This document shows positions 16,169 to 17,722 of a stretch of 44,914 bases of DNA, one piece after another. Positions within the stretch are counted from its first letter, which is position 1, and each line of letters starts with the position of its first letter. Made by a program: the position numbers and the translations under genes. Source of the DNA: Kiritimatiellota bacterium (GTDB taxonomy: Bacteria; Verrucomicrobiota; Kiritimatiellia; RFP12; UBA1067); assembly GCA_009778475.1 (NCBI GenBank), contig WRJS01000018.1, positions 1-44,914 on the forward strand, read 5' to 3'. The notes under the pieces were generated by a model, which had not been told where the DNA came from, did no database searches, and was given only the letters and a program-made list of their open reading frames with translations.

Positions 16169-17722
16169 ATGGCGTATGATGTGTTTATCTGTTACTCGAT
16201 TGAAGACAGGGCGCTCGTGGAACGCTTGTCCTCGCATCTCGAAGAGAACGGTTTCCGGTGTTTCGTGACCCATCAGGAGACCGTGCCGGGCGCGTTCCGC
16301 GACACGGCGATCACGCGCGCGATTGAGACCTGCAAGATGGCGCTGGTCGTCTTCACGGAAAACCTCAACCGTTCCGCCCAAGCGGACACGGAGATAGCGG
16401 CCTGCGCCGAGGCCCGCAAGCCCACGTTGCTCTTCAAGGCGCAGAGGGCTCCGTTCAAGGGGACGAAGCGCCAGTCCCTCGCGAACCTCTACGCGATCGA
16501 TGCCGCCTCAGACCCCGACGCGCATTTCGTGCGGCTGCTGCAAGACATCTACATCCTGTTCCCCGAGTTCCGCAAGGGGAACCTCACGCCGCAGCTCGCC
16601 GCAGAGACCGAGGCCCGGCGCCTCGCCGTCGCGGCCGCCCGGAAGCGCCTCATCGACCGGAAGGCCAGGCTTGAGCGCCGGGCCGCGCGGAAAGCCGCCC
16701 AGCGGGCGCAGGCCGCCCAGCGCCTCGCCGAGCAGGCCGCCCAACGCCTCGCCGAGCAGGCCGCTGAGCAGCCCCCCGCCGCCGACGTGCCGGAAGAGCC
16801 CTTTGACGCCGCGTGGCTCTTCACCGACGACGCGCCGTACTTGGCGATCGACCTCTCGGGCGGCCCGGGCGCCGGGGCGTATCCCCTGCGCCGCTCGCTT
16901 ACCCCGCCCTGCCTGACTGGCGACACCTGCCGCACCACGGAGCTCTGGTTGCGCCTGATCCCCCCCGGCACCTTCCTGATGGGGAGTCCAGCCGACGAAC
17001 CCGCGCACAAAGACAACGAGCTCCTCCATGAGGTGACCCTGACGAAACCGTTCTACATCGGCATTTTCCAGGTGACGCAGAAACAGTACGAGCTGGTCGC
17101 CGGGGCGAACCCCTCGGCCATCCGGAACGACACGCTCCCCGTCATCAACGTTTCCTACGAGATGCTTCGCGGCAACCGCAACGGCGCGGAGTGGCCCACG
17201 CACAACCGCATTGACGCAGGCTCTTTCTTCGCCGCGCTGCGCACGAAGACCGAGCTGCTCGCCGACCTGCCCACGGAGGCGCAGTGGGAATACGCCTGCC
17301 GCGCCGGGACGGTCACCGGGTTCAACAGCGGCAAACCCCTGACCGCCTCGGACTTCTGCCCCAACATGAACGAGGTGGGGAGGTACAGGAGCAGCACGCG
17401 CGGAAAGAAAAAGAAATCGCCGGGGGGGGTCCTCGCCAGAGGCGGGCTGTACCTGCCCAACGCATGGGGGCTGTACGATATGCACGGCAACGTGTACGAA
17501 TGGTGCCTGGACTGGGAGGGTCCCTTCAAGCCGACGCCCGTGACAGACCCCAAAGGCGCCCTTCCCAAGTGGTTCCTCGGCGCGCCCTTCGGGAAACGGG
17601 TCCAGCGCGGAGGCTCCCACCTTACCTCGGCGACCGCCTGCCGTTCGGCGCACCGCCACGCGCAGTTCCCCAACACCGTCAGCAACGACCGCGGTTTTCG
17701 CGCGGCCATCCATATTTCTTGA
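16169..17722 (+). CDS. TIR domain - helical linker - FGE-sulfatase-like fusion protein
   Basis: 517 residues from the ATG at 16169 (a TTG at 16160 is possible). Residues 1-135 form a TIR domain: AYDVFICYSIEDRALVERL, GFRCFVTHQETVPGAF, MALVVFTENL, then DTEIAACAEARKPTLLF, where Glu75 is where NAD-cleaving TIR domains keep their catalytic Glu. Residues about 140-215 are Ala/Arg/Gln-rich and likely coiled coil, with a 24-bp tandem repeat at 16715-16762. Residues about 250-515 resemble formylglycine-generating-enzyme/C-type-lectin-like domains: LIPPGTFLMGSPADE, LPTEAQWEYACRAGT, WGLYDMHGNVYEWCLDW, RVQRGGSHL, and a final GFRAAI. Only Cys491 is present near the C-terminus, so the active-site cysteine pair of true FGE is absent and the domain more likely binds something than oxidises it. 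No signal peptide is seen, so a cytoplasmic location is expected. A defence or signalling role is inference. Confidence 0.85.
   Translation: MAYDVFICYSIEDRALVERLSSHLEENGFRCFVTHQETVPGAFRDTAITRAIETCKMALVVFTENLNRSAQADTEIAACAEARKPTLLFKAQRAPFKGTKRQSLANLYAIDAASDPDAHFVRLLQDIYILFPEFRKGNLTPQLAAETEARRLAVAAARKRLIDRKARLERRAARKAAQRAQAAQRLAEQAAQRLAEQAAEQPPAADVPEEPFDAAWLFTDDAPYLAIDLSGGPGAGAYPLRRSLTPPCLTGDTCRTTELWLRLIPPGTFLMGSPADEPAHKDNELLHEVTLTKPFYIGIFQVTQKQYELVAGANPSAIRNDTLPVINVSYEMLRGNRNGAEWPTHNRIDAGSFFAALRTKTELLADLPTEAQWEYACRAGTVTGFNSGKPLTASDFCPNMNEVGRYRSSTRGKKKKSPGGVLARGGLYLPNAWGLYDMHGNVYEWCLDWEGPFKPTPVTDPKGALPKWFLGAPFGKRVQRGGSHLTSATACRSAHRHAQFPNTVSNDRGFRAAIHIS
16715..16762 (+). repeat. 24-bp tandem repeat in the TIR protein linker
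   Basis: Two 24-bp units (16715-16738 and 16739-16762) differ at one base and encode AQRLAEQA twice in the predicted coiled coil. Such units can expand or contract by slippage. Confidence 0.8.

Follow-up and report, generated by a model that had tools for sequence, protein, structure and literature searches.

What is the task of a bacterial protein that joins a TIR domain and a lectin-fold module of the formylglycine-generating enzyme (FGE) type in one chain? The gene that raises this question lies in the window analysed here, i.e. the whole 44,914-nucleotide contig C18 of a Kiritimatiellota bacterium (3.97-Mb genome in 208 contigs, 91% complete). It runs from the ATG at 16169 to the stop at 17722 (16169..17722) on the forward strand, as do all its features given below, and encodes 517 aa plus stop; an in-frame TTG at 16160 is an alternative start that would add 3 aa. 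Pfam found both TIR_2 (PF13676, E 2.6e-15) and FGE-sulfatase (PF03781, E 1.8e-34) in this one frame and no further family, in particular no NTPase domain. We lean, with little more than even confidence, towards a sensor and effector in a single protein: a ligand bound by the lectin module would cluster the TIR domains and so switch on NAD hydrolysis, with the cell stalled or killed as a result. We favour this because the two domains have apparently been joined repeatedly, the FGE site is broken, the fold resembles that of a binding protein and variation lies on the likely binding face. In the following, G denotes genomes (G000 is the genome of this bacterium), C contigs, L loci, P proteins and A alignments.

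Fold and active-site residues of the two domains

The TIR domain comprises aa 1-131 (16169..16561). Its Glu75 (16391..16393), the predicted NAD-cleaving glutamate, was invariant in the aligned TIR rows, 19 of 19 in one alignment and 23 of 23 in another (own row included), and the latter rows share only 17-30% identity with the TIR domain studied here. Structures were predicted with AlphaFold2 and the models are confident; since the second half of the TIR domain came out misaligned in A1 and A3, the full-length alignments, the TIR and lectin domains were modelled separately. In structure comparison the TIR model matched TIR domains including those of NAD-cleaving SPARTA, SARM1 and AbTir. The original prediction, made from the letters of the window, had named a TIR domain with Glu75 and proposed such a structural comparison; both the fold and the catalytic glutamate of an NAD-cleaving TIR are indeed present.

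Many TIRs have a Trp four residues ahead of the catalytic glutamate; in this protein the residue there is Gln71 (16379..16381). At this position, Gln and Trp each occur in seven of the 23 rows of A4; of the 12 rows among them that belong to the protein's own TIR clade, 7 have Gln. Gln71 and Thr34 both differ from the commonest residues at their positions. The Trp of AbTir-like cyclising TIRs, which we take to be spaced four residues before the catalytic Glu in AbTir, is thus replaced by Gln71. The role of that Trp in cyclising TIRs is treated in PMC10937652.

An alternative is a non-enzymatic TIR domain, acting as scaffold or adaptor, together with a lectin module that recognises a partner in the cell envelope or in signaling, as part of a housekeeping circuit. 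Gln71 and Thr34 would fit this, as would the housekeeping genes next to the gene (see below) and the fact that adaptor TIRs such as MyD88 match the TIR model about as well as the enzymes do. However, Glu75 is kept in all 23 rows despite their low identity, and Gln71 is shared by most of the aligned rows of the clade. Hence we regard an adaptor function as rather unlikely.

The lectin module consists of an FGE-type C-type-lectin-fold domain (16955..17707) preceded by an N-terminal extension (aa 223-263, 16835..16957; YLAIDLSGG...YP...TTEL in A5). The predicted FGE fold at the C-terminus is supported by the PF03781 match as well as by the AlphaFold2 model. In sequence the module is related to PvdO (E 3.8e-16) and FGEs, among others. 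When the model was compared with known folds, FGE and TvpA having been suggested beforehand, PvdO was the top match in Foldseek and TvpA (2y3c), a diversified binding protein, was the best match in a second structural comparison.

Alignment to solved FGEs places Thr486 (17624..17626) at the first catalytic cysteine and Cys491 (17639..17641) at the second, so that the copper-binding cysteine pair of a catalytic FGE is incomplete. The first cysteine is absent throughout (0 of 26 aligned modules, 0 of 14 other TIR-FGE proteins); the second is present in 21 of the 26 modules. Judged by these alignments, the catalytic pair is broken rather than wholly absent. The original prediction, according to which the pair is lacking, therefore holds for the first cysteine and not for the second; a catalytic FGE site in the homologues, which would have spoken against the sensing role proposed there, was not found.

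It is very unlikely, in our estimate, that the lectin module is an FGE-, PvdO- or EgtB-like oxidase which is regulated or exploited by the TIR domain. The relationship to PvdO and the FGEs, the Foldseek result and the retained Cys491 are what one would expect of such an enzyme, yet the first catalytic cysteine is missing from all modules and TIR-FGE proteins compared, and the closest fold in the second structural comparison was that of a binding protein. These results leave room for PvdO-like chemistry.

A binding function, as in the sensor-effector reading, is consistent with the variation among paralogues. The C-terminal 45 residues (aa 473-517, 17585..17719) hold 19 of the 40 most variable paralogue positions, whereas 6.2 would be expected (p 1.6e-7). 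This segment matches the variable region of TvpA, residues 285-329 (PMC6328139).

Between the two domains lies a basic linker rich in Ala, Arg and Gln, which is probably helical (aa 139-214, 16583..16810). It has 23 Ala, 12 Arg, 8 Gln and 8 Glu in 74 residues and an isoelectric point of 10.7 (aa 139-215). The AQRLAEQA duplication noted previously was confirmed as a 24-bp tandem repeat encoding these 8 residues twice (16715..16762, Tandem Repeats Finder score 107), with one base differing between the copies. No further copy was found in the genome assembly with up to 2 mismatches allowed.

The repeat bears on the question of whether the fusion might be a recent functionless product of shuffling or a chimera of contig assembly. 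Besides the repeat, this would account for the protein being the sole sequence of its 90% cluster, known from a single contig, and for the absence of a TIR match from one genome of the same genus, which is 72% complete. But the repeat, having no other copy in the genome assembly, provides nothing across which sequences could have been misjoined. The reading frame has no interruption, and third-position GC is host-like in each part of the gene (0.84, 0.92 and 0.87). Overall it is 0.87, compared with 0.90 in argJ and 0.92 in gyrA, the neighbouring genes, and so the fusion gene resembles an ordinary coding gene of its genome. As the same architecture is also found elsewhere, we consider an artefact or a functionless product improbable.

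Origin of the lectin module and recurrence of the pairing

A search of 59 genomes, the own one included, with the whole protein gave matches in 56. Among the matches listed, almost every best segment falls within the lectin part, and a few reach into the linker. G000 contains 18 PF03781 matches, a few of which are two pieces of one frame. A large family of lectin-fold FGE modules is thus present in the genome, and it is expanded in the order to which the bacterium belongs. Some homologues of the module carry the names Victivallales, Lentisphaerae and Verrucomicrobia, and three loci on viral contigs match residues 159-391 or 153-383 of P0121, i. e. its lectin part.

Most members of the family appear to be secreted. 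Of the related frames, 20 have their 5' end intact, and 16 of these start like a signal peptide when judged by a crude criterion (Met, Lys/Arg, hydrophobic stretch); L005, L012, L018 and L029 do not. Ten more were left uncounted, eight because they are cut at the locus edge and two (L013, L017) because no frame was found. Some family frames are broken by stops, TGA in L005 and TAG in L012. In the fusion protein no membrane-like stretch was found (best 19-residue hydropathy 0.82).

In a tree of 43 lectin modules the module of the fusion protein groups with 23 modules of the secreted-type family (98/97, the bootstraps not being fully settled) and apart from 16 other TIR-FGE modules. The 23 modules are labelled secreted by family and not each individually. 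The N-terminal extension is common to the module and the secreted-type family (A5), and its motif was found neither in L065 nor in any of the 14 other TIR-FGE proteins. An approximately unbiased (AU) test does not reject a single clade of the TIR-FGE lectin modules (p 0.095, or 0.082 when the long row L151 is left out). Capture of the lectin module from a secreted-type family of the same order is therefore likely, but not proven.

TIR_2 occurs in few genomes of the order (21 of 161), and the TIR type of the fusion protein is rarer still (16 of 387 genomes across the phylum, counting this one). Besides the fusion protein, G000 has a single TIR_2 match, L002 (G000:C3:62494-62829), a protein of 687 aa with an N-terminal zinc-ribbon-like stretch; a TIR domain, repeats and a membrane-like C-terminus were recognised by eye. 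A search with the TIR domain of the fusion protein recovered, among 197 candidates, no protein but the fusion protein itself. With the TIR domain of L036, 75 proteins were found, 14 of which also contain PF03781; four of these (P0129, P0141, P0142, P0144) have a membrane-like stretch between the domains.

To place these TIR domains relative to each other, a tree of 46 rows was used, 17 of them TIR-FGE. The rows are a selection from the search results rather than a census; P0121 was excluded as near-identical to L036. The 17 rows require at least five label changes, each a loss or a gain, on starred branches. A single TIR-FGE clade was rejected with p 5e-94, or p 6e-55 when L145 is labelled TIR-FGE. 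These trees suggest that TIR-FGE pairings probably arose several times from different TIR lineages. Such recurrence is as expected of a sensor-effector pair.

The relatives L036 and L043, from the same order, adjoin further TIR genes, unlike the gene studied here. In G268 (L151, C80, 7724-12914) two neighbouring genes both encode a TIR domain of the same subgroup as ours, one with a C-terminal FGE domain (PF03781, E 4.6e-33), the other with a LamG-type lectin domain (E 6.8e-9). By eye, a membrane-like stretch separates the domains in this pair, which gives the look of a receptor whose outer domains can be exchanged. A third gene of G268, L145, is a TIR frame that also has FGE-like motifs. The TIR-FGE gene of L064 (G134:C9) stands next to three further TIR_2 matches and a large gene that by eye is Ser/Thr-kinase-like. 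The one of L065 (G076:C120) has a Sel1/TPR-like repeat gene on one side and, on the other, a TIR protein rich in RHS-like repeats, both likewise judged by eye. P0149 and P0180 are TIR proteins with PF07603 in place of FGE, perhaps another binding-partner domain of TIR.

Genomic setting and known systems

As proposed originally, the gene lies between argJ and gyrA, both identified by Pfam. The former ends 60 bases before the ATG, and the frame of the latter begins 46 (or 97) bases past the stop. In relatives, argJ was found within 1.5 kb of gyrA at 0 of 29 gyrA loci and gyrA within 1.5 kb of argJ at 0 of 24 argJ loci, several loci in either set being cut by contig ends. A scan detected no terminator and one weak promoter site, on the opposite strand. 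The window has 34 further candidate frames, 22 of which were scanned with Pfam. Two of these gave no match; the others include parts of an oligopeptide-type ABC transporter, UvrB, SecY, ribosomal proteins and EF-G; no known defence protein was recognised among the 22. The fusion gene thus sits among housekeeping genes. At 1965-4691 the window encodes a protein with NPCBM and hydrazine-synthase-alpha middle-domain matches, which is unusual at first sight.

A link to Thoeris or another known defence system found no support. There is no ThsA partner for Thoeris next to the gene, where argJ and gyrA lie, and the best ThsB model reaches 16 bits. Neither STING nor SAVED of CBASS matched the fusion protein, and no such sensor and no CD-NTase is among the 22 scanned window proteins. 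APAZ or a short Argonaute, as in SPARTA, was found neither in the fusion protein nor in these 22. With PADLOC no hit spans both domains, the best (24.5 bits) covering the TIR part only; hits on eight other TIR-FGE proteins fell on the TIR domain, except for coiled-coil-type hits to LmuB and a few others. The protein shares the TIR fold and catalytic glutamate with the effectors of CBASS, SPARTA and Thoeris, whose sensor domains or partner genes were not recognised here.

A link to retroelement diversification had been raised as well. The genome contains a single reverse-transcriptase match, L035 (G000:C104), a fragment with one in-frame stop, which by its motif we take to be group-II-intron-like. 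No template repeat was seen: the DNA of the 3' part matches elsewhere only over a conserved lectin-motif stretch (query 11-96 of 303). Membership in a retroelement-diversified antigen-sensor system of the published type would explain the structural match to TvpA and the coincidence of paralogue variation with the variable region, but neither a suitable reverse transcriptase nor a template was seen in the 91%-complete genome. We thus give this explanation hardly any weight.

FGE (FGS) domains have been proposed as intracellular invader sensors, with TIR among the effectors on STAND NTPase-FGS proteins (PMC8195603). The fusion protein resembles these systems in its sensor candidate and effector, but TIR and FGE are joined by the linker only; no NTPase domain (Pfam), partner gene or retroelement was found, so that it was not assigned to them. 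Retroelement targets with a STAND NTPase and a lectin-fold sensor, some with an N-terminal TIR, are described in PMC10907252. In cyanobacteria, TIR-like domains are a less common N-terminal domain on retroelement-diversified C-terminal ligand-binding lectin-fold domains, and ligand-triggered activation was proposed for the kinase versions (PMC7517822). Unlike those proteins, ours has no detected retroelement and a module that groups with a mostly signal-peptide-like family; TvpA, in turn, is retroelement-diversified and lacks a TIR domain. The 33 reported prokaryotic caspase-FGE-sulfatase fusions (PMC3501461) likewise combine a suicide-type effector with FGE-sulfatase in one protein, the effector here being TIR and not caspase.

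Thus both FGE domains as TIR-coupled invader sensors and retroelement-diversified lectin-fold proteins with TIR-like domains have been reported before. The present protein differs in that its TIR and FGE domains are joined with neither NTPase nor retroelement and that a module of secreted type has apparently been captured. Such a join is not described in the literature searched, which leaves out most subscription journals and which includes, in the parts available, the papers cited above and PMC9612521, PMC7159879, PMC7075850, PMC9402430, PMC13174449 and PMC6388578.

In FGE-like type VI secretion immunity proteins the FGE-like domain reportedly serves outside catalysis (Lopez 2021, going by its title); that title mentions no TIR and the setting is different.

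Proposed action of the fusion protein

In the sensor-effector reading the trigger would be a molecule of an invader, or one exposed by stress, in the cytosol. It would be bound by the C-terminal variable face of the lectin module. Binding may bring TIR domains together, and this clustering could activate them to cleave NAD through Glu75. With Gln and not Trp at position 71, the product would be mainly linear ADP-ribose, i. e. the protein would act directly and not by a cyclic signal, and the loss of NAD would stall or kill the cell. Of the original prediction that the FGE part senses a ligand and activates a TIR NADase, the two folds, Glu75, the match to TvpA and the recurrence speak in favour; links to known defence systems and to retroelements were not found here.

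Plant NLR receptors carry decoy domains. A possible, though improbable, interpretation is that the fusion protein is a TIR killer which uses an intracellular copy of the secreted lectin modules of its own lineage as bait. An invader molecule made to bind surface lectin proteins would then spring the TIR trap. Each lineage would fuse whichever FGE module is the target of its invaders, and the repeated TIR-FGE pairings would follow from this.

If the protein is a sensor and effector in one, it would be a minimal immune receptor that consists of an enzyme domain, a linker and a binding fold whose face is variable, and that has neither an NTPase switch nor an evident partner gene. The repeated pairings hint at a minimal alarm-and-kill device. 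Since the pairing has seemingly been made more than once, a comparison of the separate cases can reveal its purpose; for finding ligands, the order offers a ready panel of modules in its many lectin-fold relatives that are predicted to be secreted.
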